Below, piece after piece: positions 19,828 through 64,000 of a stretch of 64,000 nucleotides of DNA. The DNA comes from Thraustochytrium sp. TN22 (taxonomy: Eukaryota; Sar; Bigyra; Thraustochytrida; Thraustochytriidae). The DNA lies in the NCBI GenBank assembly GCA_013306675.1, contig JABLUY010000072.1:62001-126000 (forward strand), in the 5' to 3' direction. The position numbers were made by a program, and so were the translations under genes. The notes below the pieces were generated by a model. That model searched no databases. It saw nothing but the letters and a program-made list of their open reading frames with translations, and was not told where the DNA came from. How positions within the stretch are numbered: the stretch's first letter is position 1; each line of letters opens with the position of its first letter.

Positions 19828-19988
19828 TATCCCTAGTAAATCGGCTCTCCTGCTTGCGCTCGACTGACCTGTTGCTATCATGATTCTAATCATTTTTGGA
19901 ACTTTCAACTACTGGGTTTGTATGGAAGCGTAAAGTGTTGGTCACTTCCGACTGGCCTGTGCGGATGCTGAGGCCAACTTGGGCTGCA

Positions 19989-21855
19989 TCAAGGGCACGA
20001 TGGACTCGTGCTGAGGCTGCTGCGAGAGGATCTTGAACTATGGCTTGATGGGGTGTCGGTGTAGCTGGCTTGGGCTACGTGGTCGTTCCTGCTCTGCGCT
20101 GTAGGGGTACCGGACGAGGCACTGGCGCTGCTCGAATCGACATGATCGAGGCAAATGGGCGAAGGTGTTCCGTTGACGTTTGTCTTGCGCTTCTTGAAGC
20201 CTTCGTGAGGCTCGACGCGCACGCGCGTGTGCCACTTGGAAAAGCAGGTTGTGCGTTCATTCTTTCTCATGAACACGTGCAGAGGCACACCGCAGATGGT
20301 GCAACGACGGTGCGTTTGCTTGCCGCAGATGACGCAGAGCCGCTTGGCGGGAATCCTCTTGTTGTTGGCGTTGAAGGATGCCTTTCCCGCTGCCTCTGAG
20401 TCATGTTGCAGTGCGGCATCGAGGCGGATGTCGCGGGCTTGGCCGTGGTTGAAGAACTTCTGCAACTCGGGGGTTCGCTTGCGCTTACCGGCGGTCACGA
20501 GGTCCCTCGCCGCTTCCCTGGTGAGCCCAGTGGGCTTGGGCATGCTTGGCTGCATGTTGAACTCCACCTGCGCCGTATCGAGCTGCCTGCTCCTGTAGAC
20601 GTGACGGACCATGTCGACAGTGAGGCGGAACGAGACAGTGCTGAGCGCTTCAGAGCGGTTCACCTTGTCGCGGAGGGCCTTTAGCCCGTCGCTGTCTTCG
20701 AGGTTGCTCTTCCTCGCAGCCTGTAAGTAGCGGTAGACCACGATGGCGTTGACAACGAGCTGCTTGTACGTGCGCAACGCGATGTTCTGGTCGCAGCTCA
20801 GATTCATGCACTGCGTGTTGGTGATCTGCTCCACGTACTGTGTGCTTCCGTCGACGCCGCCCTTTGCGACGTTGTATAGCTCCTGCGGTAAGCACTTGAT
20901 GACATGCACGGGCCGCATGGGCCCCTTCAGAGCGACAAGCTTGCGCATGGCGCGCCACAGCCGGAAGTGCGAGCTCAGCACCGCCCCCTCCTCCTCGCCG
21001 AAGATGGCAGGTGGCTTGGGCGGCGCACCCGCTGTCGATGCTCTGGTGCGCCCATGTCGTGAGCTTGTCCGCCCACGGTTTCAGAGCGCGCTCCATGGCG
21101 AGCCGGGCGTCCGGAGGCACTTCAACGAGGCAGGCGTACAAACACGAACTCGTGCTGGCAGCAACGTAGAGCACGTGATCGATTTGGAGGACCACAGCTT
21201 GGTGCAAGACTTGCGCGCGGTGCTCGGCAGGTATGGCCTTCCACCAAGTCTCGTCCCCCACGTGTTCATCTGGGTGCTCACGATACGTGCGTCTACCGCG
21301 CCTCCAGGCGCGACGCGCGTCTTGATCTCGACGCTGCATAGTACTGACGATGCGTCGCACTCCGCGCCTGGAAGCCGGACGCGAGCGACTCCATCCGGCG
21401 AGACTGCGAGCCCCGGAACGGTCTTGTGCTGAATGAGGCCGACCTCGAACATGCACTCGCACCACGCGTCGGTTCGTCGACCAACGCAAGTATGTCTTCG
21501 AAGTCTTGCTGCGCAGCGGCCTCAGCACGAGCATCCTCGTCGCCAAGCTCCTCTCCTTCTTCGTCTTCGTCCCCTGTGTCCCGCTTGTCCAGGGGCACGA
21601 ACTCGCTGTCGCTGTCGCTGTCGCTGTCGTCCTCCACGCGGTGGTTAGGCCTCGCCGATGCCATGATGTCGCAGTGCGGGCCCGACTCCACGTCCAAGCG
21701 CTGCGGCAGGGGCGTGCGAGCTGAGAGCAGGCACAAGGCACCCGCCAGGGCCGCCTGCAGCCGCGCGCCGCAGCGCCTGCGGCTCCAGCGCGCTCCGCGA
21801 CGAAGTCGCGCGCGAGCTCCCCCCAAAGCCGCTCTGGGCGAACTGCCGAGCTCAT
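19989..21855 (-). pseudogene. Degraded transposon gene: PD-(D/E)XK nuclease plus piggyBac-like C-terminus (right copy)
   Basis: Mirror copy of the gene in the left arm, with the same order of parts and the same frame pattern. The C-terminal 330 codons are identical in protein sequence to the left copy. The three arm differences all fall in the acidic region upstream of the nuclease piece and change three residues there (for example FEDIRALVDE to FEDILALVDE). No other difference between the copies is visible. Confidence 0.7.
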
Positions 21856-22119
21856 CTCATCCTAACCACCACGCCTTCGGCCAAAATGAATAGGGGGCAG
21901 GAGCCTTGGGTCGCTTCGAGTGGGCCTCTTCAAGCTCGGCCCCATCGCTGCGTTTTTGATCGAATGCGGAACTAACTTCGCCAGACTCTAGGCCACTTTT
22001 TTGGAGCAAATCGGGAGTAAAGTACCCTCTTAATACGCTTTAGTGCCCCCTGTGCCGGGCGTCACCGAGGGACCCCCGCGTGGTAGGCGGATACGAGTAA
22101 GCATAGAGGTGTGATTGGG

Positions 22120-22164
22120 ATATGGCTATCCTGATTAAACTCCGTCTAGGGCGATGGGATTGGG
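22120..22164. repeat. Terminal inverted repeat, outer copy
   Basis: Exact reverse complement of 19783-19827, marking the right boundary of the right-hand element copy. No such copy exists at the left boundary of the left arm (17484). Confidence 0.9.
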
Positions 22165-22308
22165 CTATCCTACGAATGCGTAAATGATTCCCAGAAAGAA
22201 ATTCGGCCCACGTTTGGTTCTTGACCATTGCCAACGAAAAAGGAGATGGCAAGGCAGCGCAGCGCGGTCATGCCGTAGGACCGGGCATCAACAAAAAGTG
22301 AATTTTTG

Positions 22309-22403
22309 TAGTCGCGCAGGGGGTCGAACCCCGGACCTTGGTGTCGATACTCTCGAGGCGAGAGGTATTAGCACCACGCTCTAACCAGCTGAGCTACACA
22401 ACC
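22309..22403 (-). tRNA. trnI-AAU: tRNA-Ile(AAU) with 21-nt intron
   Basis: The minus strand folds as a tRNA: acceptor GGTTGTG pairs with CGCGACT (with GU pairs), D stem GCTC/GAGC, anticodon stem TGGTG/CACCA, anticodon loop CTAATA plus A, T arm CGGGG-TTCGACC-CCCTG, discriminator A. The anticodon is AAU (read as IAU). A 21-nt intron (22345-22365) lies at the standard place one base after the anticodon and contains a CTCTCG-CCT-CGAGAG hairpin; its GTAT can pair with the anticodon region. Internal A box (TAGCTCAGCTGGTTAGAGC) and B box (GGTTCGACCCC) are intact, and a T5 terminator follows within 20 bases. Confidence 0.93.
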
Positions 22404-22438
22404 AAAGACGTTGTTCGATGTTACGCCGGAAAAAATTC

Positions 22439-22532
22439 TAGTCGCGCAGGGGGTCGAACCCCGGACCTTGGTGTTGATATTCCCAAGGAGGGCGTATTAG
22501 CACCACGCTCTAACCAGCTGAGCTACACAACC
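22439..22532 (-). tRNA. trnI-AAU: tRNA-Ile(AAU) with 20-nt intron
   Basis: A second tRNA-Ile gene has mature sequence identical to the copy at 22309-22403 but a different 20-nt intron (22475-22494, CGCCCTCCTTGGGAATATCA) at the same position. A T6 terminator lies just 3' of it. The two genes are a tandem duplication with 35 bp between them; only the introns and spacers have diverged. Confidence 0.93.
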
Positions 22533-22690
22533 AGGCGAAACCCGCTAGGGTCTCGGTTAGGTTTCCGTTGAGGCTCCGGCGGCAGACGCCGCATAAGATC
22601 ATCGACGGCGGGGCGGGGAGCGCGGGGCGCTGGCGGCGCGGTCGCCGGTCGAGTCAAGAGCGAGCCTCAGGACGCAGCGGCGGACGCTGG

Positions 22691-23918: not shown

Positions 23919-26139
23919 TCAGATGCGCACGACCTCGACCTTGGCGCGCTGCGGCAGCTGGTTCGGGATCATGAGCGTCTCGTCGCTGTCGCCCTCGTCC
24001 TTGTCCTGATCGACGGCATTCTCCTCCGGCTTGCCTCGGGCGGCGGCAGCGCGCTCCTCGACTGTGCGTGGCTTGACGAGGATGCGAGCGTACATGCCGC
24101 CGGTCCGGCCGCGCGTGAGCCTGCCCGGATTGACGCAGAGCGTGCCGTCGCAAAGATCGTGCGCAAAGTGCATGAGCTTGGAGGTGAGGAGCAAGAGGTC
24201 GGGCTGCACGTCGAGGTGAAGCGCGTGACGCTGGTCGAGCTCGAGCGAGGCGCCGGGCGCCGGCGGGAACATGGGGTAGAAGGAGCGCTGCAGAATCATC
24301 TGCTCGGCGAGGCGCTGAATGCGCTTCTTGGGGCGGGCGCGGTCGACGCGCGCCACATCCTCGCCGGCCAGGTGCATGATGGTGTCCTGCGTGTTGACGC
24401 CGACGACAAGGTTGGAGACGCGCAGTACGCACGGGTTGGGCGCGAAGAGGATCTGGTCCGGGTCCGAGAGCTCCACGTTAGCAAGGAGAGCGCGAGGCAG
24501 CGGCGGCTGCGGGTACGCAACGGCGTGTGTGACGTCGTCGAGGCTGGGCACGACGACGACGCGAGTGGGCGTGCCGTCGACGACGGTGGCGATGCGCTGC
24601 AGCACAAACTCGAGCACGTCCATGAAGGAGAGCGAGAGCTGCTCGCCGGTCTCGAGCGTCTTGATGCACTTGCCGACGGCGACCTGCGGGTGCGTGGCGT
24701 CAACAAAGGGGCCCATGAGTACGAGCACGTCGGGCTTGGCCTCGGCCACGTTGGCCAAAAGGTCCTCGAGCGGCTCGTAGTCGAGGTCGTCCTGCGTCGA
24801 GAAGGGGCCGGCCGCCGTCATGATGGCGACGGGCGCCGACTCGGCACGCGCCGCGCGCGCTTCCGGCACCGCGGCGAGCCGCGGCTGCACGGCCGAGAAG
24901 ATCTCGCGCGCGTGGAAGACCGGGCCGGACGGGCAGACGCCGCGCGCCACGATGACCTGGCCCGGAAAGAGGCTAAAGGCGGAGACGGCGGGATCGATCT
25001 CCAGCTTGACGCGCGCGCCGTTCGCATCGGCGCGCGAGCCCTCCAGCACGAGCGAGCTGGCGTTCAGCTTGCCGTTGGCCGCCTCGCAGCACACGCGGCC
25101 CAGGACCAGGACCTCGTCCTGCCCGGTCTGGCCCACGGCCGCAAAGTCCTCGTCCGTCCAGTTGTACGCCGCCTTGAAGTGCTCCTTCATCTCGCCCAGC
25201 TGCGCCTCGAGCATGCGCGCGCGCTCCACCACCGTCGTGTACATGTACTGGTACGGCTCGCGCAGGTCGCTCAGGAGCTCCACGCGCGGCGCCGACCGGC
25301 CCAGCGCGCCGTCCGCGCCGCGCTCCGCGCACACCGCGTCCCAGTCCAGGCCGGTCTTGGCCGGGTCCGCACTCAGCTCCACCTTGCCCATATCGCTGCG
25401 CTCGGCGTACGCGGCCGTCGAGCAAATGGGCGATCCGGACGTCGGCAAGGCCTTGACGGGTGTCTGCGACCGCGGCGGCGTCTGCGGAGCCTCCAGCTTC
25501 ACGCGCTTCTTCTGATTCGACAGCAGCACAGCCTTGGTGGCCGACCCGGCCGCGCCGCGCTTGCCACTGCCCACCGGCCCAACCGGCGACGCCTCGCCCA
25601 GATCCAGGCCGAACTTTTGCGAGAAGTCGTCGATGCGCTTGCCCTGGCCCGGCAGCCGGCTCACCGTGCGTTTCGTCAGCACCGGCGTCGAGTACCCGGC
25701 CGTCTGCACGCGCTCGCCAGGTGCCAGCCCATCCTGGCCCTGCCGCGGCGGCTTCTTGCCGTACACCCTGCGTCCCTTGGCCTCGTTGCGCTGCTCCTCC
25801 TTGGCCAGCGCCTCGCCCAGCTTGCGCAGCAGCTTGTCCGGCCCGGCGCCCGCGTGGTTCAGGGCCAGCACCTCCCACTTGGTCGCCAGCGTCTCCGCCG
25901 TCACGCCGTGCCGCGCGCACAGCTCGCGGCCTGCGCAGAGCACAGTCGAGCAGACCCGTGCATGGTCGCGAGCGCGTCAGTTCCCCGGCCCTGCTTCGAC
26001 AACCATGACCTGCCTGGCCCTCTTCGCGCAACCTACACGTCTCCACGAAGCTCTCGTCGTCCGGCTGCGCGTCGCCCACGTTCTTGAACGCGCGCCGCAC
26101 GTCCTCCGCGCCCGCCAGGGCCGCCGTGGCCGCGGGCAT
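23919..26139 (-). CDS. POLA2: DNA polymerase alpha subunit B (two exons)
   Basis: This is the regulatory B subunit of DNA polymerase alpha-primase, which starts nuclear DNA replication. The long frame carries the OB-fold region (QDEVLVLGRVCCEAANGKL) and the inactive phosphoesterase domain with the family motifs TAAGPFSTQDDLDYEPLEDL, LMGPFVDATHP and a C-terminal PNQLPQRAKVEVVRI. That frame has no suitable ATG. A first exon at 26037-26139 (MPAATAALAGAEDVRRAF...) joins across a 106-bp GT-AG intron (25931-26036) to give SFVETCRELCARHGVTAETL, which resembles the N-terminal helical domain. The product is 704 residues, longer than the roughly 600 of animals because of a Lys/Pro linker. The intron starts GTAGGTTG, as in two other genes here. 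Confidence 0.93.
25931..26036 (-). other. Predicted spliceosomal intron (POLA2)
   Basis: 106 bp, phase 1. Donor GTAGGTTGCG, candidate branch site AACTGACGC, acceptor CTCTGCGCAG. It joins the ATG-led first exon to the main frame. Confidence 0.8.
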
Positions 26140-50456: not shown

Positions 50457-50992
50457 ATGACGACGACGATAACGTTGACAAGGACGAGCGCCTCGCGGTC
50501 TACGGCGTGAGTAAGACTCTGCGCAGGAGCGCCATGGGCTGACACACGGACGAGGGATTCATGTGCTCACCGTACTTGCCGGAGCGCGAACACGAGGCAA
50601 CGAATCAAAGCTGTTGCGCAAAAGTGCGAGTGGGGCGACTCGAACGAGCAACTCTGAGACCAGCGCGCCCTGCCAAGATGTCTCATCTGCTTGAGAACGC
50701 ATCTCGGTGCCGAGGCATGCAACGAGCTTTGATGATAGGACGATTCCGATGAGATCGCCTCATGCTTCCATGCACAAATGCCGCCCGCATCAAAGCCCTC
50801 ATGACATCAAGCGCCTCTCGTGCTGTCTTAAGTTGCACTGCCACATGCCTGCAGTGCCGGGGCCGCCGTTGGCATTGGGTGGTACCAGTACCCATGGTAA
50901 CTCCTGGAACCCGTGCCGACTTGGATGATCTTCTTCTCAACCGAGCGAACCGGCGGCAGACCCGTATCCGAGGCTCCTGCCGCCCCGCCCCT

Positions 50993-51013
50993 GGCAGGCA
51001 GGCAGGCAGGCAG
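50993..51013 (+). repeat. GGCA repeat upstream of alpha-mannosidase
   Basis: Five GGCA units followed by gggagggagg on the sense strand, 103 bp before the ATG at 51116. Confidence 0.85.
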
Positions 51014-51115
51014 GGAGGGAGGCAGCGCTCGGCGGCACGAGGCAGCGCTCGGCGGCCCAAGGCTCGCGCTTGCGGCGGTCGTCCACTCGGCCGGGCCCGA
51101 AGTCGCGCGCGAAGG

Positions 51116-54100
51116 ATGAAGATGGTGGGACGCAGGCTGGAAATGGCCCTGGCAGCGCTGGCCGCGCTCGCGCTCACGGACCTGTCGAGCGCAGCGCAGG
51201 AGGAGGGGCTGCAGGTGCACGTGGTGTCGCACACGCACGACGACACGGGGTGGCTGTGGACGGTGGATCAGTACTTTGAGATGGAAGTGAGATACATTTT
51301 GGACACGGTGGTGGACAACCTGAAGCGGGACCCAAAGCGTAGGTTCAACTACGTGGAGATGGCGTTCTTCTCGCGGTGGTGGGAGGAGCAGGACGGCACG
51401 ATGCGCGCGGACGTGCGGCGGCTGGTCAAAGAGGGCCGGCTGCAGTTCTTGAACGGCGGGTGGTGCATGCACGACGAGGCGGGCCCGCTGTACCTGGAGA
51501 TGGTCGACCAGACGACGCGCGGTCACCAGTTCATCCTGAGCAACTTCGGACCAGGAGCGGCGCCGAGCGTGACGTGGCAGATCGACCCTTTTGGCCACAC
51601 CAACACGCAGGCGTGGCTGCTGGGCGCGGAGGCCGGCATGCCGGCCATGTTCTGGGCGCGCATGAATGAGGATGACCGCGAGGCGCGCAAGAAGTCACAC
51701 ACACTCGAGTACGTGTGGCGGGGTAGCCGTAGCAACGGCGCAGACGCGGAGATCTTGGGCGGCGAGCTCTGGGGGGACAAAGGCGGCGGCTTGTACGCGT
51801 GCCCGTTTAGCTTCGAGGAGTACGAAAGGGCCGCCAAGGTGGTGGACAACCCGGAGCGCCACGACTACAACATCGACCAGTGGGTGGAGCGCGCCGTCCA
51901 ATCGGCGCTCAAGCAGGCGGCCGACTTCAACACGAACCACATCATGTGGGCGTGCGGCTTCGACTTTGCCTACAAGAATGCGGCGACCTGGTTCCAGAGT
52001 TTGGACAAGATCATTCGCGCCGCCAACAAGGACGGTCGCATCAACGCCTTTTACTCGACGCCGGCGGACTACGTGCGCGCCATCAACGCGGTGCCCAACG
52101 CGACCTGGTCGGTGCGCGAGGACGACCTCATGCCGCTGCACGAGCACGCGCACACGTACTGGACGGGCTACTTTTCCAGCCGCGTGGCGCTCAAGCGGCT
52201 CATTCGCAAGAGCTCGGCGCTCCTACAGGCGGCGCGTCAAATGGCCTTTGCAGCCAATTTGCGCGACGTGCCAGCGGCACAGCCGCGCCACGGACCGCGC
52301 GTCGGCACCTCCTGGACCGATGCCTTCGAGTCGGCGCTCGCTGTCTCCATGCACCATGACGGCGTTTCCGGCACAGCCAAGCAGGCCGTTGCCAATGACT
52401 ATGCACAACGCCTGTCTGAGGGCCGCGACCAGCTTGACCGCGGTATTGCACAGGCCATGCACCGTTTGGCCGGCGTCGCCGACCTTGAGGCTTGCGCGGC
52501 GCTCAATGTCTCCCTCTGCGCGCTCACGGCCGACACCGACGCCCAGAGCTTCACTCTCGCCACCTGGAACCCACTCTCCGCGCCACAGGCCGGCCACATC
52601 TTTGCCGTGCCGGTACGCCCTGCCGGCGGCTCTTACAACGTCACCCTGGCCGGTGCGCCACTGCGCACGCAGCTCGTACCCATCGACGAGGCCACGCGCG
52701 CACTGCCCCAGCTCTACGTCAACAGCTACGGCATGGACGGCGACCAGCTTCGTGCCGCCCTGGACGATACCCTCAACAGCGCCACGCACCGTCTGCTCAT
52801 TCAGGCTGACGTCCCACCTATGCAGCCCGTGATTATCGATGTCATTCACGTTGCGGCCGCCCATGCTAGTGAAGAGCACTCGGGCGAGGAGCAAGAGACG
52901 ACGCAGCAGGAGCAGGAGCAGGAGCAAGAGCAGGAGCAGCAGGAGCAGGAGGAGGAGGAGGCCGACACGCTTGCCGAGTCCGAGTCCGCAAATGGAGGGG
53001 AGACCGTCAACCTTAGCTTTCCGTTCTTTCCGCACCACCACCCGCACCACCACCCGCACCATCACCCTGTGCACTGCATGCACCCGAGCGAACTAGACCT
53101 GAATCAGATCGAGACGGACGTCTTCCGGCTCGAGTTTGACCCGGACTCGCATGCGCTGCGTCGCATCGTGAACAAAAAGACGCAGGTGGAGGCCGACCTT
53201 GCGCTCAACTGGGGCTACTATGAGTCCGCCGCCACGGACTGCACCGAGACGGGGTGCGCCAAGAACGTGGTTTCGGGCGCCTACCTCTTCCGACCGGCCT
53301 CCTCGCACCTGTACCCGGTGAGCGAGGGGTACGATAACGGCAACGCTGCGCGCGGCGGTCTGCGCGGTGAGCGGCGCACGCCGCCGAGCGCCTCGCCGCC
53401 GCTGTGCACCACCGTGCACAGCGGTGACCTGGTGACGGAGGTGCGGCAGACGCTCTCGGACTGGGTCACCCACGTCATTCGCCTCAAGGATGGCGCGCCC
53501 TACATCGAGGTGGAGTACACTGTAGGGCCCATCCCGATCGAGGACGGCGTCGGCAAGGAGGTCGTCCTGCGGTACTCGTCCGACCTCAAATCGGACGCGC
53601 GCTTCGCGACGGATTCCAATGGCCTCGAAATGCAGCCGCGCGTGCGCGACCACCTGCCCCCGTCGTATCCGGCGCCGCGCACGATCACGGACGAGCCCAT
53701 CGCCGGCAACTTCTTCCCCATCAACTCCATGATTTCCGTCGTGGAGGAGGATCGCGCGCAGCTCACCGTGGTCACGGACTCCACCCAGGGCGGCACCTCG
53801 CTCAACGATGGCGAGCTGGAGCTCATGGTGCACCGTCGCGTGCTGCACGACGACTACAAGGGCGTCGTGGAGCCGCTCAACGAGACCATGTGCGGTTGCA
53901 ACGGCGCGAACGACCGGTTCTGCTACTGCGCCGGCCTCGCAGTGCGCGGCGTGCACCGCATCGTCTTCGACGAGCCGCTTCAGGCAAACGCGACGCGCCG
54001 CGTCGTGGCAGATCAGCTGCACTTCGAGCCGCTCTCCTACTTTGCGCCGCTCAAGGACGCTGCGGGCGCGCCGCGCCGCGCTCAGCAGCCCGCCGTCCTG

Positions 54101-54490
54101 GCCGCGGACCTTCCGCCGGCCATCAAGGTGCTCTCGCTCATCGACAACTACGTGCCCACGCTCGGCGAGAACTCCGTTTTGCTCCGCCTGCAGCACATGT
54201 ACAGCGTTGATGAGCACGCGGACCTCGCCAAGCCCGTGACTGTCTCGCTGGCCGGCCTCCTCGCCGGCCGCAAGGTTGTGAGTGCCCACGAGACCACCGT
54301 CACGGGCAACATGCGCGTCGAGGACAAGCCCACCTTCAAGTGGCGCCTGGAGGCCGACGCCCCGCCGCCTGAGCACACCCGCGCTCCTCTCTGCCGCGAC
54401 ACGCTCTCCGTCGAGATGGGGCCCATGCAGATCCGCACATTTGTCCTCCACCTCGAGCCGCTGCAGGACGACCTTTTGGCCTCAAAGTAA
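51116..54490 (+). CDS. MAN2B1: Lysosomal-type alpha-mannosidase, glycoside hydrolase family 38
   Basis: This 1,124-residue enzyme should remove alpha-linked mannose from glycoproteins in lysosomes or vacuoles. A signal peptide (MALAALAALALTDLSSAAQ) precedes the GH38 domain. Zinc and active-site motifs are HTHDDTGW (residues 39-46), WQIDPFGHT with the nucleophile Asp157, CGFDFAYKNAATWF and MHHDGVSGT (His413-His414). The C-terminal beta domains carry WGYYESAATDCTETGCAKNV and the family block GTSLNDGELELMVHRRVLHD. The protein is about 110 residues longer than the human enzyme (1,011). Part of the excess is an insert at about 582-660 made of Glu/Gln repeats and then FPHHHPHHHPHHHPVHC. The ATG at 51116 starts the signal peptide; upstream codons in frame are non-ATG. 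Confidence 0.96.
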   Translation: MKMVGRRLEMALAALAALALTDLSSAAQEEGLQVHVVSHTHDDTGWLWTVDQYFEMEVRYILDTVVDNLKRDPKRRFNYVEMAFFSRWWEEQDGTMRADVRRLVKEGRLQFLNGGWCMHDEAGPLYLEMVDQTTRGHQFILSNFGPGAAPSVTWQIDPFGHTNTQAWLLGAEAGMPAMFWARMNEDDREARKKSHTLEYVWRGSRSNGADAEILGGELWGDKGGGLYACPFSFEEYERAAKVVDNPERHDYNIDQWVERAVQSALKQAADFNTNHIMWACGFDFAYKNAATWFQSLDKIIRAANKDGRINAFYSTPADYVRAINAVPNATWSVREDDLMPLHEHAHTYWTGYFSSRVALKRLIRKSSALLQAARQMAFAANLRDVPAAQPRHGPRVGTSWTDAFESALAVSMHHDGVSGTAKQAVANDYAQRLSEGRDQLDRGIAQAMHRLAGVADLEACAALNVSLCALTADTDAQSFTLATWNPLSAPQAGHIFAVPVRPAGGSYNVTLAGAPLRTQLVPIDEATRALPQLYVNSYGMDGDQLRAALDDTLNSATHRLLIQADVPPMQPVIIDVIHVAAAHASEEHSGEEQETTQQEQEQEQEQEQQEQEEEEADTLAESESANGGETVNLSFPFFPHHHPHHHPHHHPVHCMHPSELDLNQIETDVFRLEFDPDSHALRRIVNKKTQVEADLALNWGYYESAATDCTETGCAKNVVSGAYLFRPASSHLYPVSEGYDNGNAARGGLRGERRTPPSASPPLCTTVHSGDLVTEVRQTLSDWVTHVIRLKDGAPYIEVEYTVGPIPIEDGVGKEVVLRYSSDLKSDARFATDSNGLEMQPRVRDHLPPSYPAPRTITDEPIAGNFFPINSMISVVEEDRAQLTVVTDSTQGGTSLNDGELELMVHRRVLHDDYKGVVEPLNETMCGCNGANDRFCYCAGLAVRGVHRIVFDEPLQANATRRVVADQLHFEPLSYFAPLKDAAGAPRRAQQPAVLAADLPPAIKVLSLIDNYVPTLGENSVLLRLQHMYSVDEHADLAKPVTVSLAGLLAGRKVVSAHETTVTGNMRVEDKPTFKWRLEADAPPPEHTRAPLCRDTLSVEMGPMQIRTFVLHLEPLQDDLLASK

Positions 54491-55614
54491 CGTGGCAACC
54501 CAAGGAATCGAAGTTGGCATGCCCAGCTTCAACCTCGCTTGACAGTGATGATAATCATGCCAATCTCGCTCGAAGTGCGATGTCGCAGAGCGCAGCGCAG
54601 CGCAGCGAAGCGCAGCGCGCGCAGTGCGACTCGCGCCGGCCCGTTGCCAAGGCACGCCACATCAAATCAGGGCACACACGAGTGAGTGGCTCCGTCGCAA
54701 CAGAGCTGGCGCCAGAAGCTTGCTCGAGCTGGCGCCAGAAGCTCAAGGCCGACGCCGACGCCGACGCCGGCGAGGCTTACTCCCCTTGAAGCCCCTTCCC
54801 CTTGGGTTGGTTGGGTCCCTGATGGCCTGGCAGGGCCGGTGGCTGCGGTCCCGTCGTCCGCGCGCGGCGCGCCTGGACAGCGGGGGAACCGCGGGAGGGG
54901 GGCAGGGCGCGGCGCGCGCGTGCACCGCGGCGCGCGGCCCTGCTTGCGCGCGGGGCGGCGGCGCCGCGGCGCGGCCCAGACGCGCGGCCTGCCCCCGCGG
55001 GAACCGGGGGCAGCGCGCACCGGCGGAGGCTCGCACGCGCGGTTGCGCCACTTGCGGCGCGGCGCGCGCCACTTGCGGCGGCGCGGGCGCCACTTGGGCG
55101 CGCGCGCGCGCAAGTGGCGCGCGCGCATAGCCCACTGGCGGCGCGCGCGGCGCGGGAGGCCCCGACCGCCAGACCTGAGTCGGCCGAGGCGACCCGAGGC
55201 GCGCGGGCGCGGGCCCGCGGCGCGAGCGGCGCGCGGCGGCGCGCGACCCGGCCACCGGCTCCCGCCCGCCCGACGCCCTCCCCCCCAGCGCGCCCTCCTG
55301 CGCGAGCGCGAGCGCGCGCGCGTGCGCGGACGAGGGCATCGGGCGCGCATTTCACCATCGATCCATTCATTCAGCCCTTCTCCGTCTATTGACGGCGAGG
55401 AGGACGCCGTGGACGGCGCGGAGAGCGCGCGCTCTGGGCGTGGGAACGAGGCGAGGCGAAGCGAAGGCCGCCCGCGCCGCACTGCGGGTGCTACGCTGCG
55501 TCTGCGTCTGCGTTTACGTCTGCGTCTGCACCTGTCCGGCGGCTGGAATAGCGCGCGAGCGACCGGGTCGTGCCAGAGCGGCGACCGTGAGCAGGTCGCA
55601 GAGGCGTTGGCGGG
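54491..55614. other. GC-rich intergenic region upstream of the cyclase-phosphodiesterase gene
   Basis: 1.1 kb, very GC-rich from 54.85 to 55.3 kb. It has an imperfect tandem of gcgccacttg(c/g)gcg units (55047-55118) and a tgcgtctgcgtctgcgttta run (55498-55530). Near 54592-54618 there is a gcgcagcgcagcgcagcg run, and near 54711-54740 a duplicated gctggcgccagaagcttgct word. No frame shows protein-like composition. The promoter of the next gene should lie here. Confidence 0.45.
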
Positions 55615-58600
55615 ATGAGGTACATCGAGCTGCTGGCGAGCTACCTGCCGTCACTGGTGGTGGAGGAGATCCTGAAGCTGGAGAAGCTGGAGCATGAGGA
55701 AGGCATCGTCCACCCCCCGGACGAGGCGCGCATGGCAACGTACGACGCAGCGTGCTTGTTCGCGGACGTGAGCGGGTTCACGCGGCTGAGCGAGAGCATG
55801 ACGCACCGCTACGGCTCGTACGTGGGCGCGGAGCATCTGGCGAAGCAGCTGAACTCGTACTTTGGCCAGCTAGTGAAGATTATCAACTCAGAGGGCGGCG
55901 ACGTCTTCAAGTTCGCGGGCGACGCCATGATCGTGCTGTGGCCGCCTACGGGCACGGATACCTCAGAGAACTTGGACGACCGCGCGCGGCGGGCGACGCA
56001 GTGTGCCATCCGCATTCAGGGGCTGGGCCAGGACCTGACCTTTGACGACGACGCGGTGTCTCTGAGCATCAAGATTGGCGTGGGCCTCGGCTCGCTGGCC
56101 ATTCTGCACCTGGGCGGCGTCAAGGGCCGCACCGAGTATGTGGCGGTGGGCGAGCCCATGAGCCAGGCCTTCGAGGCCGAGGGCCTGGCGAAATCGGGCG
56201 ACGTCGTCGTGTCGGATTCCACCTACAAGCGCCTCGGGAAGCAGTTTTCGGACGCGGTCGAGGTGAAGAGCACGAAGCGTAAGAACGCCAAGCCGTTCCG
56301 GCTCATCAACTACCGGGCCAACCAGGAGCAGCTGCTGCGCGCGCGCAAGAAGCACTTTGGGCTCAACCTCTTCGACTCGTACACGGGCGAGACGGAACAG
56401 CGCATCCGCCGACTCATCCCGACCGCGGCGCTGCAGTCCATCGACTCGGAGCACCCCGAGTTCGAGTACTTTAGCTCGGAATTGCGGCGCGTGTCCGTGG
56501 TCTTCATCAGCTTGGGGCTGGAGGAGGACCAGGTGCAGGGTGCGGCCAGGGGCGGCGAAGAGATGCAGCTGCTGCACGAGTCGATGCGTCTTGTGCAGAC
56601 CACCGTGTACAAGTACGAGGGCGCGCTGAACAAGTTTATCGTGGACGACAAGGGCGCCACCATCATCGTGCTCTTTGGCCTTCCGCCATACAGCCATGAG
56701 AACGACGCCAAGCGCGCCGTGTCCACCTCGCTGCGCATTGTGAGCGACCTGCACGACCGTCTCGGGCTCAAGGCAGCGGTCGGCATCACCACGGGCGCCG
56801 CCTTTTGCGGCGTGCTCGGCTCGCAGACGCGCAAGGAGTACTCGGTTCTCGGCGACATCGTCAACCTGTCGGCGCGACTCATGCAGGCGTCGCGCCTCAG
56901 CATGGAGGCGGTGGACGGTGCCCCGCCCATCATCTGCGACAGCGCCACACACGTGAGCTGCAGCCGCGACATCCCGTTCCGCACGCTCGTGCCGGTGACC
57001 GTCAAGGGTAAGGCCGCCCCGATCGCCTGCTATGCGCCGCTTGCCGGCTATGCGGCGATCGACTCGGAGCTGGCCGCCAAGAACAAGGACGAGGACGATG
57101 GCCTCGCGCTCTACTCGGCCTTTGACGGCTCGCACGACGGCAGGGAGTCCGCCATGGTGCTCGGTCCGCATTTCCCGACCCAGCCGTCGTCCGGGCCGAG
57201 CGGCTCGGGCCACGTGAGCGAACGCTTCACCACCTTTGAGATTCTTGCGACGGTCCGCCTTTCGGAGCTGGACGAGTCGAACGGCGCCAAGAATGAGGGT
57301 TTGCGCATGTACTTTCGCCGGCCGCAGTCGCTTCTTGGCGGCGGCAGCCGCCGTCGCCGCCTGCGCGGGGCCAGCGGGTCCGGTGCGGGCGCTCCTCCGC
57401 CCCACCGCCGCCAGAGTAGCTCGCGGAGCCTCATGGGCGCCTCCATGATCTCCGAAGCGGATGAGGACTCCCTCGGCGCCGGTCTGCATGACGGTGGCGA
57501 CGATGAGTTCGTCGTGCGCGCGCCCTCCCAGGGGGGGCAGTCGCCGCAGCGACCCAAGTTGCTGAAGCAGCGCAGCGGCCGCGCCAGTCTTGCAAGTTCG
57601 AGCCAGTCCTCGTCCAAGCTGCGCCAGGGAGGCACCAGCGGGACGGCCGGCTCGAATCGCAAGAGCCTTACATTTTACAATCGCAAGGACGGCCACACGA
57701 GCGCGCAGCCGGCCCTCTCCGCTGCGGAGCGCCTCGAGATTTGCTCTCAGATCGCCGTGGGCGCCAGAGGCATCTACAAGCTGGGCGAGATGGGCCGCGC
57801 GCACCAGGGCCAGGCCGACACGCGCGCGCTCCTTACGAATGCGTGTACCTTCGGCCGCAACACCGGCATGCTGCGTCACGGCGTTGGCACCTCGAGCGTG
57901 GCGCTCGTCATCCAGGGCACTGAGGTGATCTTGAATATGGACCTCTGGCCCTCGAACAAGGAGCGTGTGGCTGCGCTCATGGACGAGAGCGGCGCTTCGT
58001 CCGCCTCGCACGGCCTTCCCTTCACCTACGTGGAGGCCGTGGTCAACTCCGCGCTGGCCTTTGGCGAAATCTGGAACAACTCCCTTGACGCTCCGGCGGA
58101 CGCACGCGCCGACGCCGCTCGCCGCGTGCCCACGGCCATGGGCGGCGGCGCGGGCGGAGCCGCCACTTCCGCCCCGGTACCCTACCTGGACGAGTCCGGC
58201 AACGGCGGCACGACGCTCAAGCTGGTGATGGTGCCGCGGCGCGACGTGGACGTGCTGCAGTCGAGCGGGTCGTACATGCTGCAGACGCTCATGGCGCGCA
58301 AGATCGAGCTGGTGGAGTACGGCAAAGGCTCGGTGGTGATCATCCAGGGCGAGGCCGGCGCCGGTAAAACGCACATGCTCAAGCGCTTCGGCTTTGGCTT
58401 CCTGCCCAACAGCTTCCCCGTGCTCGGCTCCTCGGAGCAGTGGGAGCACACCGTGTCGCAGTTCGAGGCGCTCTTCGAGTCCGAAGGAGACACGGGCCAG
58501 TTCGCCAAGTTCCGCAACGAGGAACGCAAGTTCCACGTTTGGTTCGACGTCATCACGCAGTGGGTCTGCTTTGAGGCCGCCAACCTCAAGAAGGCCACGG

Positions 58601-61600
58601 TGCGCAAGAACCCGCGCCGCGTGCGCACGCAGCTGCTGCAGGACCTCCTGGCCAGCGGCCTGCTCTCGTACGCTTCGCTGCTCAACGAGGACCTCGGGAC
58701 CAACTTCCCGCCGCTTTCGGCGGCCGTTGAGGAGGACCTGGATGCCATGACTCCCGTGACGCGCGCCAATCACCTGACGGAGATCGTCTCCGACATGATC
58801 TGCGACATTGTGACCAAAATTACCACCAAGTACGGCGGCCTGGTGGTCCTCTTTGACGACGCGATGCGCCTGGACGAGCACTCGTGGAGGGTCGTGTCCA
58901 AGCTTTCGCGCCTGGTCATGGCCGATGCGCTCGAGCTCATGCTGGTCATCGCCTCGCGGCCCTTTGAAGGCCTCGCCGACCGCACCATGGGCCTACGCCC
59001 GCGCCTCATCGAGCCGCGCGCCCGCGCCGCGCTCGAGGCGTACCGCGACGCCTGCGCCATGGATGGCGTCGACGTGCTGGCCCTTGGCGCGCTCTCGCGG
59101 CACATGGCCATCGACCTCTTTCGCAAGAACGTCGGCGAGAATGTGGAGAGCTTGAGTCCAGAGCTCTGGCAGATTTGCGAGACGCGCTGTTTCAACATCC
59201 CGCAACTCATCAAAGAGTTCGCCTACGAGCTGCGCGCCGCGCGCCGCCCCAAGCTCGTGCGCTTCACGCCGACGCAAACCGCGCTCAACGCGCGCAGGCA
59301 GGCCAAGCGCTCGCCGGGCTACGACCCGGCGCTGCGCTACGTCGCCTCGCTTCGCGTCCAAGTCCAGCAACTCGACGAGCCCGCCTGGAACTTGCACGCG
59401 GCGCACCGTGCGGCGCTGAGCAAGCAGGCGGCCTACCTGGCGGACCGCGGCATGGGCGAGGCGACTGGGGGCGGCGGCACGGGCATCAACGAGGACGAGA
59501 TGGAGCACATGAACTTCCCGCCGGACTACTATCCGCCCGCCGAAGTGGCGCCGCCGCGCACAGCGGCCGGTGTGCTGGGCGAAATCTTCGACCGCCTCGG
59601 CTCCATCGAGCAGATGGTGCTGCGCATCGCCTGCATGATTGGCAGCACCTTCTCGCTGCGCCTCGTGCAAGACGTGTACCCGCGCAACGCGCTGCCGCAC
59701 GACTTCACGGCTTCCCTGGTCAAGGCGGCCTGCGAGAACTTGGCGGACCAGCACGGCATTTTCCACAAGATCCGCGCCAACGCGTATAACGACGAGTACG
59801 TCTACCGGTTTGCCGATATTTTGCTCGTGAGTACGATCCGGCAGCGCCTGCTCAAGAAGCACAAGCTGTCTCTGGCCGCCAGCATCACGCGCGCCCGCGC
59901 CCAGTTCAAGGCGGCGCTGAGCCTCGCGAAGCTTGACGAGGAGGATCGCGCGCTGCACCGGCCGGCCTCGGTCATGGTGCGCCCCACCGACTCGCGCGGG
60001 ACCCGCACCGAGAAGGAGGGCAGCGTCTCCATGAAGAAGCTCAACCCGGCGCAGAAGAATCTCTTCTCGGAGTGGAAGGACCGCTACCTCATTCTGCAGC
60101 CCGATGCGCTGCTTGTGTTCAAAAAGCGCGAACCGCGCCGTGCCACGCAAAACGACGCGCACATGATCATTTACCTGAGCGAAGCAACGGTCACCCTCGT
60201 CGAGGACGCGGCCGAGCGCACGCATCCGTTCGCCTTTTGCGTGCGCGCCGAGATGTGGACCCGCAAGGGCGAGCCTCACTACGTGCAGCGCGACTTCACC
60301 TTTGCCGACTCGAGCGAGGCGGGGACTCGTAAATGGCACTCGCGCATCTCCATGACCGTGAACCGGCTCAAGCTCGGCGCGCGTTTCCCCACCAAGGACG
60401 GCACCGGCAGTTTCCAGGACCTGCTGCCAGCGCGCCGCCGGTCCGTGCACGACTTCAGCGCGTACCTGAGCCCGGAGGAGTCCGGCCTTCTGCTCACCAT
60501 CCGCGCGGTAAGCCACGAGGGCGCCGCGGAGCGGCCCAGCATGCTCAAGTCGAGCAGGAACGCGAGCTCGCGCAAGCAAGCGCACGCGAACGCGAACGCG
60601 AACGCGAACGTGGAGATCTATGCGTCCGCTGTCATCAAGGTACGCAATGGCGCGCGCCTGGTCCGCAAACAGACCATGTTGACGGCGCCGGTCAACACGG
60701 AGCTGGTGGACTTCAACGAGTCCTTCGTCTTCAAGCTGACCCCGGAGCTCCTCGTGGACTGGGTTGCCCAGCCCGAGTGCAACGGCACGCTGGAGATTGT
60801 TCTGTGGCGCCAGGTCGATGCGGCGCTCGCCTTTGACCAGATGCTAGGCTTTGGCTCCGTGCAGCTGCACGATGTCTTCGCGCAGCGCGACGCCAAACCG
60901 GAGCTTTTCATGGAGCTGGCCATGCGGGAGCCGTACGCGGAGGTACAGACGAACGACACGGTGGTCGCGATCGGCCTGCAGATGATCATCCGCGATCGAG
61001 ACCTGGATCGCCTGGACGAGCTGACCACCATCGCCGGCTTGCCCGACAGTGGCATGGACGTGGACCAGGCTGAGCAGCTCGGCGTCGCGGACGAGGTCTT
61101 TCAGCAGAACATGGAGATGAACGTGCGCGTGGAGACCGGGACGCGTGGCGGCAGCTTTGTAGACCCCACGGGCGCCGGCCGCGGGCGCACTCTGCGGCGC
61201 GCGTTGCCAAAGCGCAAGACGCTCGCGCAGCTCAAGGCCAGGGCCACTGGCAACCTCGAGGAGTTGGCGGCGGCGGACGCGGCTGCCGAGGCCGAGGCCG
61301 CGGCGACCGAGGCCGTCGCCGTCGGCGACTTTGGCCTGCTGCCCACGGAGCCCGGTCTGCCGGTGCGCTCGCGCTTCTTTTCTTCCGCGGCGCCGCCCTC
61401 GCGGCGCGGGACGCTCACCTCGGACGTCGCGCCGCAGAGCCTCGGCCCGCTCGCGGCCCCGCTCGCGCACCTCGAGTTCGTCGGTAAGGCGGCGCGCACG
61501 CGCGGCGAGCGCGACATGCTGAGCCTGCTGAAGCGCCTCTTGTTGACACGCTCCTTCGCGGAGCTCGTCAGCCCGGTGAGCCTGGATGAGAAGTCGCGCC

Positions 61601-63567
61601 AGTGGCTCGGCTCCCAGTTCACGCGCGCCACCTCGCACCAGTCGAGCATGCACGATGTCCTGGCGCCTCCGCCGGGCCCCAAGCGCCTTTCGCACGTTAG
61701 CGCGAGCTCCACGCAGGTGGGCGGCGACGCGGACGAGCCCGGCTCGCACTCGGGCATGTCGTACGTGGGCGCCAATGCCACCTCCCTGACCGACCTCGAG
61801 CTCATGGCCAACGCTTACGTACAAGCGTGCGACCGCCGCATCAGCTACATCGACGAGGACACCATGTCCTTGGTCGGTCCGGTCGGCCTCTCGGTGGTGC
61901 TGGGCCAGATCGGCCGCGGCGTTTCGCTGATGACCAAGATCCGCGTGCACGACGCGGCTCGGGACCAGGACCAGGACCAGGACGACGACGACGACGACGG
62001 CGGCGTCGACGAGCTCCCGCTGGCGTCCTATCTGGACGAGTTGCGTACGCAGGCGCTCGAGGCGGCGCGCTGCATCATGGACCACGGCGTGGCGACCGAC
62101 GTGGGCCGCGCCGACCGCACGCGCCGCGCCACACTTGCGCAGATTTTTCTCAACCGCGAGCCCAGCACCGTGCTGGGCCAGGGCGGCGGCCGCGACGGCA
62201 GCCTCGTCATCTCCTCGGCGGCCACCATGGCGGCCGTGGCGGCCGCGGCTGCGGCGCGCAAGCGCAAGAACCAGCCGCGCCGCAAGAAGAAGAAGTCCGA
62301 GAACTGGAACAGCCTCGTCTCGCGCTTCAACAAGTTCGCCGCCAAGCTCAACGTGACGGACCACCGCATGCTCGACCCGAGTTCATGGTACTTTGACCTC
62401 CAGCGCGTGCCCTCGGAAATGCGTGTCGGCCTCGTTGCCTACATGTTCCGCGCCACCTCGGTCGCGCAGCAGTTCAACATCCCGCCGAACTGCTTTGTCG
62501 CCTTCGTCGATCGCGTTGAGAGCGCCATGTCCATGCACGGCGCGCCCTACCACAACTTCGACCACGCCTGCGACGTGCTCCAGGCCACCTTTTGCATGCT
62601 CACCAGCTACGGCGGCGCCGAGCTTCTCGACGACGTGCAGACCTTTGCGCTTCTGGTCGCCGCCTTTTGCCACGACCTCGAGCACCCGGGCCTCAACAAC
62701 GCCTTTCAGGTTCACGCCCAAACCGAGCTTGCCCTGCAGTATGAGGGCCGCTCCGTGCTGGAGAGCCACCACTGCGCCTGTGCCTTTGCCATCGTCGACG
62801 ACCCGGCTTCCAACATCCTCAGCGGCATGGACGAGATTCACGCCGAGAAGCTGCGCCAGGTCGTCCTCGACTGCATCCTCGCCACCGATATGACCTGCCA
62901 CTTCGACCTCTCCGGCGACCTTCGCGACTGCATCGTGCAGCACCTCGACGATCCCACCTCCTCCATGAATCCCGACGAGCGTGTGCTCGTCGCCAAGTCC
63001 ATCATGCACTGCGCCGACATTAGCAACCCCACGCGCGCCTGGCACTCCTGCAAACGCTGGCAGGACCTTATCTGCGAGGAGTTTTACAAGCAGGGCGACC
63101 TCGAGCGCCGCAACGGCTGGGAGGTCTCGCCCAACATGGACCGCGAGACCACGCACCAAGCCGAGATGTCCATCAACTTCATCGACGTCATCGTAGCGCC
63201 CCTCTTCTTCGCCATCAACACGCTGCTCCCCAACGCCATGGACCCCTGCCTCCAGGTCGCCACCAACCGCTCCAAGTGGATGGAAGTGCTCCACGGCGAG
63301 ATCGAGCAGCGCCACGACCTGGACGACATTGATCGCGTCGAGGCCATGCGCGACTGGGAGGCACGCGAGGCCACCTTCGAGCAGGTCCTCGCCTCCGCCG
63401 GCTTCGTGCGCGACGACGAGGGCGAGCTACGCGCCCTTGCATCCAGCGGCGACTTCGGCACCATCTCTCGCCGCAAGGGCTCCAATGCTGTCGTCGCTTA
63501 CCTCGACGTCGCCGACGCCGCACCGCGCGCACCCGCGCGCCCCCCCTCTCCGCAGCCCTCGCTGTGA
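55615..63567 (+). CDS. Giant adenylyl cyclase-phosphodiesterase fusion (cyclase pair, P-loop, PH, C2, PDE)
   Basis: This single 2,650-codon frame encodes enzymes for both making and destroying cyclic nucleotide. Residues about 40-235 form a class III cyclase domain with the two metal aspartates (ACLFADVSGF, Asp51; VFKFAGDAMIVLW, Asp103). Residues about 290-480 form the partner domain with KEYSVLGDIVNLSARLM, supplying Asn417 and Arg421. This C1-C2 layout is that of soluble adenylyl cyclase (ADCY10). A P-loop ATPase follows, as in that family (GEAGAGKTHML near 913-920; LVVLFDDAMRLDEHSW near 1077). A PH domain lies at about 1469-1585 and a C2 domain at about 1620-1760. The C-terminal class I phosphodiesterase (about 2230-2580) keeps the metal ligands (YHNFDHACD with His2317, CHDLEHPGLNN with His2353/Asp2354, HCADISNPTR with Asp2468). 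The position of the invariant purine-binding glutamine appears to be Ser2519 (MSINFIDVIVAPLF). Confidence 0.93.
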   Translation: MRYIELLASYLPSLVVEEILKLEKLEHEEGIVHPPDEARMATYDAACLFADVSGFTRLSESMTHRYGSYVGAEHLAKQLNSYFGQLVKIINSEGGDVFKFAGDAMIVLWPPTGTDTSENLDDRARRATQCAIRIQGLGQDLTFDDDAVSLSIKIGVGLGSLAILHLGGVKGRTEYVAVGEPMSQAFEAEGLAKSGDVVVSDSTYKRLGKQFSDAVEVKSTKRKNAKPFRLINYRANQEQLLRARKKHFGLNLFDSYTGETEQRIRRLIPTAALQSIDSEHPEFEYFSSELRRVSVVFISLGLEEDQVQGAARGGEEMQLLHESMRLVQTTVYKYEGALNKFIVDDKGATIIVLFGLPPYSHENDAKRAVSTSLRIVSDLHDRLGLKAAVGITTGAAFCGVLGSQTRKEYSVLGDIVNLSARLMQASRLSMEAVDGAPPIICDSATHVSCSRDIPFRTLVPVTVKGKAAPIACYAPLAGYAAIDSELAAKNKDEDDGLALYSAFDGSHDGRESAMVLGPHFPTQPSSGPSGSGHVSERFTTFEILATVRLSELDESNGAKNEGLRMYFRRPQSLLGGGSRRRRLRGASGSGAGAPPPHRRQSSSRSLMGASMISEADEDSLGAGLHDGGDDEFVVRAPSQGGQSPQRPKLLKQRSGRASLASSSQSSSKLRQGGTSGTAGSNRKSLTFYNRKDGHTSAQPALSAAERLEICSQIAVGARGIYKLGEMGRAHQGQADTRALLTNACTFGRNTGMLRHGVGTSSVALVIQGTEVILNMDLWPSNKERVAALMDESGASSASHGLPFTYVEAVVNSALAFGEIWNNSLDAPADARADAARRVPTAMGGGAGGAATSAPVPYLDESGNGGTTLKLVMVPRRDVDVLQSSGSYMLQTLMARKIELVEYGKGSVVIIQGEAGAGKTHMLKRFGFGFLPNSFPVLGSSEQWEHTVSQFEALFESEGDTGQFAKFRNEERKFHVWFDVITQWVCFEAANLKKATVRKNPRRVRTQLLQDLLASGLLSYASLLNEDLGTNFPPLSAAVEEDLDAMTPVTRANHLTEIVSDMICDIVTKITTKYGGLVVLFDDAMRLDEHSWRVVSKLSRLVMADALELMLVIASRPFEGLADRTMGLRPRLIEPRARAALEAYRDACAMDGVDVLALGALSRHMAIDLFRKNVGENVESLSPELWQICETRCFNIPQLIKEFAYELRAARRPKLVRFTPTQTALNARRQAKRSPGYDPALRYVASLRVQVQQLDEPAWNLHAAHRAALSKQAAYLADRGMGEATGGGGTGINEDEMEHMNFPPDYYPPAEVAPPRTAAGVLGEIFDRLGSIEQMVLRIACMIGSTFSLRLVQDVYPRNALPHDFTASLVKAACENLADQHGIFHKIRANAYNDEYVYRFADILLVSTIRQRLLKKHKLSLAASITRARAQFKAALSLAKLDEEDRALHRPASVMVRPTDSRGTRTEKEGSVSMKKLNPAQKNLFSEWKDRYLILQPDALLVFKKREPRRATQNDAHMIIYLSEATVTLVEDAAERTHPFAFCVRAEMWTRKGEPHYVQRDFTFADSSEAGTRKWHSRISMTVNRLKLGARFPTKDGTGSFQDLLPARRRSVHDFSAYLSPEESGLLLTIRAVSHEGAAERPSMLKSSRNASSRKQAHANANANANVEIYASAVIKVRNGARLVRKQTMLTAPVNTELVDFNESFVFKLTPELLVDWVAQPECNGTLEIVLWRQVDAALAFDQMLGFGSVQLHDVFAQRDAKPELFMELAMREPYAEVQTNDTVVAIGLQMIIRDRDLDRLDELTTIAGLPDSGMDVDQAEQLGVADEVFQQNMEMNVRVETGTRGGSFVDPTGAGRGRTLRRALPKRKTLAQLKARATGNLEELAAADAAAEAEAAATEAVAVGDFGLLPTEPGLPVRSRFFSSAAPPSRRGTLTSDVAPQSLGPLAAPLAHLEFVGKAARTRGERDMLSLLKRLLLTRSFAELVSPVSLDEKSRQWLGSQFTRATSHQSSMHDVLAPPPGPKRLSHVSASSTQVGGDADEPGSHSGMSYVGANATSLTDLELMANAYVQACDRRISYIDEDTMSLVGPVGLSVVLGQIGRGVSLMTKIRVHDAARDQDQDQDDDDDDGGVDELPLASYLDELRTQALEAARCIMDHGVATDVGRADRTRRATLAQIFLNREPSTVLGQGGGRDGSLVISSAATMAAVAAAAAARKRKNQPRRKKKKSENWNSLVSRFNKFAAKLNVTDHRMLDPSSWYFDLQRVPSEMRVGLVAYMFRATSVAQQFNIPPNCFVAFVDRVESAMSMHGAPYHNFDHACDVLQATFCMLTSYGGAELLDDVQTFALLVAAFCHDLEHPGLNNAFQVHAQTELALQYEGRSVLESHHCACAFAIVDDPASNILSGMDEIHAEKLRQVVLDCILATDMTCHFDLSGDLRDCIVQHLDDPTSSMNPDERVLVAKSIMHCADISNPTRAWHSCKRWQDLICEEFYKQGDLERRNGWEVSPNMDRETTHQAEMSINFIDVIVAPLFFAINTLLPNAMDPCLQVATNRSKWMEVLHGEIEQRHDLDDIDRVEAMRDWEAREATFEQVLASAGFVRDDEGELRALASSGDFGTISRRKGSNAVVAYLDVADAAPRAPARPPSPQPSL

Positions 63568-64000
63568 TCACTCATTTCGCGCATTCTCGCCTGGTCCTGT
63601 GTCCCGAGCGCGCAGACCGTCTGTCGCGAGAATCGCAACCCTCTGTCACCCGACGGCCTCTTCTTCCACCTCCCTTTGCATTCTCCCACTCCCTCAAAAC
63701 TGTGTTTGTTTGTTGTTTCTGTGTTGGCGAATGACAATTCCTGTCCCCGGCACTTGCAACCGCAAGACTCTTGACACTCGCTTGGCTGACCTGCAAGACT
63801 CTTCAAGAGACACTCGCTTGGCTGACCTCAGCTAGACTCTTGGCACTCGCTTGGCTGACCTGCCTACTTCAAGGTGAGGTGGACGTGTGAATTGAAATGA
63901 TTTCTTTGGTGATGAAGAAGAGCGTGCTGTAGACTTGCACGAACTACGTTCTTTTCACTTGCGCTCAGCGCCAAGGGTGTTCTGGAGTGCCTCGTGGAAG
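63568..64000. other. 3' flank of the cyclase-phosphodiesterase gene
   Basis: 430 bp with no recognisable gene. A T-rich stretch (ctgtgtttgtttgttgtttc) near 63701-63720 may belong to the 3' UTR. Three short repeats lie at 63775-63861. Confidence 0.5.
63775..63861. repeat. Three copies of an 18-bp motif
   Basis: cactcgcttggctgacct occurs exactly at 63775-63792, 63811-63828 and 63844-63861, with spacings of 36 and 33 bp and a shared gactctt word between copies. Confidence 0.95.

Follow-up and report, generated by a model that had tools for sequence, protein, structure and literature searches.

A soluble-type adenylyl cyclase and a class I phosphodiesterase predicted on one polypeptide in Thraustochytrium sp. 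TN22

Does a single polypeptide carry both the enzyme that makes cAMP and the enzyme that breaks it, and what would such a linkage do to the cAMP level? The locus that raises this question lies in the window, by which we mean the whole stretch of 64,000 nucleotides that was analysed; a first-pass annotation had described there an uninterrupted frame that joins a soluble-type adenylyl cyclase (sAC) to a cAMP-type phosphodiesterase (PDE). Our analysis supports the presence of both domains, and places them in one coding frame.

One coding frame and its domains

The frame opens with an ATG at 55615 and closes with a stop at 63567 on the forward strand: 2650 codons encode 2650 residues, there are no internal stops, and an in-frame stop lies 27 nt 5' of the ATG. 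Bearing in mind that long open frames come cheaply in GC-rich DNA such as this (the frame under study is itself overlapped by a 972-aa ORF on the opposite strand), its length is weak proof of coding, and we therefore scored codon usage, with a score calibrated on seven further frames from this genome and a comparison of all six frames in every segment. The 2650-codon frame has the top score in 27 of 27 segments, including those of the linker that precedes the PDE; the score of the last segment (51 codons) is near zero (0.02), and is the best of the six by a small margin. Both flanks (54600-55614 and 63568-64000) score negatively in all six frames. The 2650-codon frame is a real coding sequence, and it is open from end to end, as had been claimed.

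Chance long ORFs, of which the antisense one is an example, are common locally, and so it might be argued that two adjacent genes, or an assembly join, have come to share one frame by accident. We consider this most improbable: a stop between the cyclase and PDE halves was looked for and none was found in frame, the 450 codons of linker being free of stops where their own trinucleotide frequencies lead us to expect about five, and the codon signal stays in the same frame throughout. Furthermore, a diverged gene from this genome (C116, see below) has the same order of enzymes in a single frame of 2247 codons. The single gene encodes the following features:

55615..63567, + strand: single ORF of 2650 aa with the order cyclase, ATPase, PH, PDE (open frame; codon score)
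55747..56268, + strand: cyclase C1 lobe, aa 45-218, with D51 and D103 (metal) and K99 (Pfam PF00211; ADCY10 alignment)
56476..57054, + strand: cyclase C2 lobe, approximately aa 288-480, with K340, S410, N417 and R421 (ADCY10 match; bacterial sAC HMM)
57082..57774, + strand: Ser/Gly/Arg-rich insert that separates the cyclase from the ATPase, aa 490-720 (no family)
58294..59241, + strand: putative sAC-type STAND/AAA_16 ATPase, aa 894-1209 (Pfam AAA_16; bacterial sAC HMM)
59548..59733, + strand: segment that follows the ATPase in the sAC layout, aa 1312-1373 (bacterial sAC HMM, i-E 1e-9)
60010..60357, + strand: PH domain, aa 1466-1581 (Pfam PF00169, E 3e-10; score 41.0 bits, cut-off 25.1)
60415..61080, + strand: region previously named a C2 domain, aa 1601-1822 (C2 unsupported)
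61576..61629, + strand: stretch ahead of the PDE with the motif LDEKSRQWLGSQF (aa 1990-2002), common to the PDE frames C398 and C31
62293..63285, + strand: putative catalytic domain of a class I PDE, aa 2227-2557, with H2313, H2317, H2353, D2354, D2468, N2471 and F2522 (PF00233; PDB PDE chains; alignment)
63169..63171, + strand: codon of Ser2519, which takes the position of the purine-binding Gln in PDE4 (alignment anchored by the adjoining FID)

At its N-terminus the protein has a predicted cyclase of the soluble (ADCY10) type, made up of a C1-C2 tandem in which the catalytic residues are in place. In addition to the PF00211 match, a search of PDB sequences returned one continuous match between aa 35-424 and ADCY10 (E 2.9e-37; 4cm2, the chain of which we take to be human sAC), and an HMM that we built from 26 bacterial sAC-type proteins scores 419.8 bits against aa 4-480. 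Residues D51, K99, D103, K340, S410, N417 and R421 align with D47, K95, D99, K334, T405, N412 and R416 of ADCY10, respectively; we assume for them the catalytic, metal and adenine roles that derive from work on sAC. Both metal aspartates and the C2 Asn/Arg pair, the four residues that the first-pass annotation had singled out, are also present together in all 56 aligned bacterial sAC-type rows. Adenylyl cyclases carry Lys and one of Thr, Ser or Asp at the two adenine positions; here these are Lys340 and Ser410 (Lys334 and Thr405 in ADCY10), from which it follows that ATP should fit better than GTP as substrate.

On the other hand, Arg176 of human sAC, presumably its bicarbonate site, is replaced by Phe186, a change that had previously gone unmentioned. 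Taken with the exchange of Val167 for Ala177 and of Met337 for Val343 (K95 is kept), this replacement makes bicarbonate sensing of the human type unlikely. Arg is rare at this position: none of the seven sAC-type proteins aligned from this genome and only five of the 56 bacterial rows have it, so it does not define the sAC family. Those seven were drawn from 15 frames with cyclase matches; of the remainder, which were not aligned, C425 has its matches split between two frames, and the others matched the window cyclase weakly, partly or not at all.

The insert that follows the cyclase keeps the same frame with a weaker codon signal, and no Pfam family was found in 57079-58300 at E values up to 10. 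Beyond it comes the P-loop that had been reported, which we can now assign to an ATPase homologous to that of bacterial sACs: Walker A (GEAGAGKT, aa 912-919; 58348-58371) and Walker B (aa 1077-1083; 58843-58863) are both present, the bacterial sAC HMM matches the Walker A segment (E 4.8e-5) and the remainder of the ATPase (E 8.2e-10), and Pfam AAA_16 scores 36.7 bits against a cut-off of 32.6 when 58300-60000 is searched alone, and 25.5 bits over the whole protein. The tandem C1-C2 layout, the catalytic residues and the downstream P-loop ATPase are all shared with ADCY10 and the bacterial sACs. The TPR-rich C-terminal tail of sACs is not: we detected no Pfam TPR in the protein, the match to the bacterial HMM stops at position 795 of 1365, and a PH domain, a stretch without an assigned family and the PDE stand in place of the tail. 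We view this as a difference of tail, not of catalytic family.

Membrane placement had been attributed to PH and C2 modules, of which the first is supported. The PH domain scores well over its cut-off, and aa 1314-1589 match a region of a sister protein, C10, that also contains PH (i-E 3.2e-9). A lipid-binding C2 domain after PH is unsupported by three sequence-level searches: no Pfam family was detected in 60385-61080 at E values up to 10 (HMMER filters remove most matches above approximately 0.1), no PDB sequence matched 60415-61080, and a scan of the genome with PF00168 returned 86 matches, none of them on the window's contig. A C2 fold that has diverged strongly could have escaped these searches.

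Phosphodiesterase substrate and cAMP balance

By its sequence, the C-terminal domain is a class I PDE with metal ligands. Pfam PDEase_I (PF00233) matches aa 2312-2546 with an E value of 2e-80; the metal ligands that had been claimed (H2317, H2353, D2354 and D2468) are all kept, as are the catalytic H2313 and the pocket residues N2471 and F2522, where we assume that residue roles, including that of the purine-binding Gln, are those of PDE4. These attributes are held in common with PDE4 and other class I PDEs. The window PDE differs in being part of a cyclase protein and in having Ser2519 where PDE4 has the purine Gln, a replacement that was absent from the earlier description. The Pfam matches of the 2650-aa protein include neither GAF nor any other regulatory domain of PDEs.

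The label 'cAMP-type' is therefore only partly upheld: PDE4B and PDE4D are among the best PDB matches (approximately 4e-52, together with 6ezu, a chain named 'Phosphodiesterase'), whereas the dual-substrate PDE1B is nearly their equal (1.9e-51; PDE9 is at approximately 1e-45), and the purine Gln is Ser. Specificity of the PDE4 kind does not follow, and the sequence leaves the choice between cAMP and cGMP unsettled. Ser2519 may alter substrate preference, or it may weaken the PDE. When all 11 PDE frames of this genome were aligned with two PDB chains, this position was found to be Ser in the window PDE and in C398, Glu in C238, and Gln in the other eight.

These data bear on a different role for the domain, namely, that it is a sensor, or a cGMP or dual-substrate enzyme, that would recognise or cleave a different cyclic nucleotide, adjust the cyclase and so link two signals, instead of acting as a sink for the protein's own cAMP. 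We judge this to be unlikely, albeit the most serious of the alternatives that we weighed. It draws on the Ser that the window PDE shares with C398 (the nearest PDE in the genome, with weak support of 83/71), on the closeness of the PDE1B and PDE4 scores, and on the fact that Asn2471 cannot tell cAMP enzymes from cGMP enzymes, since PDE9 also has Asn there; it is opposed by the complete set of metal ligands and by the higher score of PDE4 relative to PDE9. The CAPE proteins of streptophytes, in which an adenylyl cyclase (AC) and a PDE also occur in one protein (PMC5159850, PMC8115329), are a further point against it. The CAPEs listed in one of these studies have Thr or Asn at the purine Gln position, and that of Marchantia has Thr (PMC8115329); the Marchantia CAPE PDE, partly purified, cleaves both cAMP and cGMP and strongly favours cAMP (PMC5159850). 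Bearing in mind that CAPE PDEs are also devoid of this Gln, and that the Marchantia enzyme is active (PMC8115329, PMC5159850), the membership of the window PDE in class I stands.

The exchange of Gln for Ser might also be taken to mean that one half of the protein is dead, so that in practice either the PDE serves as a scaffold on a regulated cyclase or the cyclase is a pseudoenzyme attached to a PDE; the sister gene C116, in which neither Pfam nor the bacterial sAC HMM detected an ATPase, indicates that parts of this family seem to decay. Nevertheless, every metal and transition-state residue that we checked is intact in both halves, and we place little credence in this idea.

Another observation concerns the approach to the PDE. 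The motif LDEKSRQWLGSQF, some 315 residues before the YHN of the PDE, recurs before the PDE of C398, and a looser version of it precedes that of C31. The pattern W[LIVM]...[FY] precedes the PDE in three of the 11 PDE frames and lies within the PDE of C45 (six frames were covered to approximately 500 aa upstream), and the stricter [RK].W[LIVM]...[FY], found in the window protein and C398, arose in four of 2000 shuffles of aa 1801-2255. The shared motif suggests that the PDE arrived with its own head.

We favour, with a probability of roughly 0.6, the interpretation that one cytosolic protein would hold both halves of the cAMP cycle, the 1:1 ratio of maker to breaker serving as a ceiling on basal cAMP. 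The residues of the C1-C2 pair would be expected to form a single active site that converts ATP to cAMP; the P-loop ATPase, from its position in the sAC layout, would switch the cyclase by a nucleotide-dependent conformational change; the PH domain could recruit the protein to a membrane or a partner; and the C-terminal PDE would hydrolyse cAMP released by its own and by neighbouring copies. Because the fusion would fix maker and breaker at 1:1, steady cAMP, wherever this protein dominates, would depend upon how fast the two enzymes run relative to each other, whatever the amount of protein. Such a ceiling, which stimulation of the cyclase or inhibition of the PDE would raise, is not one molecule's private pulse.

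Sharply local pulses are what the first-pass annotation had envisaged, and on this view a protein placed at membranes would confine its own cAMP on a nanometre scale. Source and sink on one chain, together with the PH domain, are in keeping with that idea, and the C2 module that formed part of it is now unsupported. We estimated, with assumed parameters, the capture of cAMP made 5-15 nm from one tethered PDE with kcat/Km of 1e6-1e8 per M per s. At D = 100 um2/s, capture is 0.0001 to 0.03 (about 0.01 to 3%); at D = 10 um2/s and kcat/Km of 1e8 it rises to 0.09-0.26, the maximum of 0.26 being reached at 5 nm. With such low capture, confinement by a single molecule is improbable, and would require dense clusters or slowed diffusion. 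Modelling has indicated that anchored, activated PDE4D can generate a cAMP domain beneath the membrane with no need of diffusion barriers (PMC2908681), which we read as an effect of a pool and not of a single molecule. A ceiling on basal cAMP remains our preferred interpretation.

Relatives and other fusions

In the genome (37.9 Mb in 453 contigs), PDEase_I matches 14 times, spread over 11 frames, and the cyclase profile 21 times over 15 frames; there are also 118 cNMP-binding matches, some of them partial or under the cut-off, which are possible targets of cyclic nucleotides. C116, with two cyclase matches and then a PDE, is the only other frame with both enzymes. C10 (L024:3098-8491, + strand) has a C1-C2 cyclase of the sAC type, AAA_16 and PH, followed by a GNAT acetyltransferase (26.7 bits against 20.7); its sequence makes a cAMP-linked acetyltransferase possible. 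Separately, Ion_trans matches were recorded in two further frames: joined to a cyclase in C183 (L025:3367-8193, - strand; 19.2 bits, under the cut-off of 25), and joined to a PDE in C31 (L031:1122-5582, + strand; 25.9 bits).

Of 64 matching bacterial frames, 56 were kept as full length; 54 of these entered a quick tree of 62 rows, and 21 of the 54 a careful tree of 29 rows. The cyclases of the window gene, C10 and C116 form one clade in both, with SH-aLRT of 99 in the 62-row tree, where the caution applies that the branches of C10 and C116 are both long and join each other, and support of 98/97 in the 29-row tree. The latter favours C10 and C116 as sisters (90/81); pairing of the window cyclase with C116 (p-AU 0.208) or with C10 (p-AU 0.204) was not rejected. 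An eight-row cyclase tree did not recover the clade: when constrained, it gave p-AU 0.0845, with 0.0643 for the window cyclase plus C116 and 0.0668 for the window cyclase plus C10.

The PDEs behave differently. Each of three row sets rejected a single clade for the PDEs of the window gene and C116 (p-AU 0.0066, 0.025 and 0.043); the tests came after inspection of the first tree, C116 is a long branch, and the PDE trees have few firm branches, with none starred in the 13-row tree. The window PDE groups with C398 with weak support (83/71, 77/72 and 39/39). That the cyclases form one clade and the PDEs do not hints at two PDE captures, and separate captures by the window gene and C116 are likely on these trees; it also means that cyclase and PDE may be paired less tightly than in a single conserved machine. 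Our broader scenario, which we put forward tentatively and at somewhat less than even odds, is that the sAC-type cyclase could be a platform that repeatedly takes C-terminal partners (PDEs from two different branches, in the window gene and in C116; an acetyltransferase once, in C10), and that the window gene would have arisen independently of plant CAPE, with the purine Gln lost in parallel.

Outside this genome, a pattern-led scan of prokaryote species genomes yielded 178 fitting stretches, and 61 loci encode sAC-type relatives, among them loci from cyanobacteria, planctomycetes, myxobacteria and spirochaetes. No PDE match was present in same-strand frames of at least 150 codons at these 61 loci, some of which were ended by contig ends. 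Two pattern scans of viral contigs fitted 91 and three stretches, none of which encoded a relative.

The first-pass annotation knew of no described protein with this order. For the exact order of sAC, ATPase, PH and PDE that statement holds in the open-licence literature, among the matches listed, where we recognised no such protein; for the pairing itself it is too strong, since AC and PDE occur in one protein in Saprolegnia, Achlya and Thraustotheca, organised as in CAPE (PMC8115329). With these and CAPE already known, the window protein is a variant of the fusion and not its first instance. CAPE, too, joins a class III cyclase and a class I PDE on one chain with the purine Gln replaced, and the first-pass annotation was correct that its PDE comes first (PMC5159850, PMC8115329), whereas in the window protein the cyclase (aa 4-480) precedes the PDE (2312-2546). 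Marchantia CAPE has 1610 aa with two predicted transmembrane segments (PMC5159850) and, by our reading, one cyclase domain; the window protein has a tandem C1-C2, an ATPase and PH, without a transmembrane pair between the enzymes. A hydropathy scan marked three segments, two of them within catalytic domains and one, Ala-rich, between the enzymes at 2196-2214; CAPE, by contrast, has an even number of such segments between its two enzymes. The Saprolegnia, Achlya and Thraustotheca proteins, which we liken to ours by their description (PMC8115329), come from non-photosynthetic stramenopiles. The oomycete GPCR-bigrams (GPCR-AC and GPCR-PDE; PMC6033456) are another case of stramenopile fusion of cyclic-nucleotide enzymes to other modules, and their seven-transmembrane domain is absent from the window protein by hydropathy scan and Pfam.

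In plants, the coupling of AC to PDE largely follows motile sperm, with one named exception, Cryptomeria (PMC8115329). If the window protein was indeed built independently from a cyclase of the sAC type, evolution would have reached the same coupling more than once. The protein, which has no transmembrane pair, would then serve as a test case for a ratio of maker to breaker set by covalent linkage, and the role of the purine Gln of PDEs could be tested in two separate lineages that are without it.

Other features of the window and genome

Upstream of the cyclase-PDE gene, at 50762-54490 (+ strand), the window encodes a GH38 alpha-mannosidase-like protein with matches to four Pfam families, one of them under its cut-off. 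Positions 17484-22122 hold a perfect inverted repeat, with two arms of 2307 nt that are 100% complementary and 25 nt apart, which duplicates ORFs of 401 and 330 aa; it is either a real palindrome or a fold-back artefact of assembly. Just outside it, at 22308-22533 (- strand), are two adjoining tRNA calls, one for tRNA-Ile (aat) and one with an ambiguous anticodon.

PfaA-type PUFA synthases are typical of thraustochytrids, and the genome has such a frame, which together with its neighbours scores 2539.7 bits where the cut-off is 1010.1; among 14 control genomes, 11 gave matches, none of which exceeded that cut-off. On contig C37, C2 matches of equal score lie at 24157-24462 (- strand) and 76018-76323 (+ strand), and cNMP matches at 7318-7608 (- strand) and 92872-93162 (+ strand): both pairs are placed as mirror images (the sum is 100480 in both), as would be expected if the contig were a single long inverted duplication.
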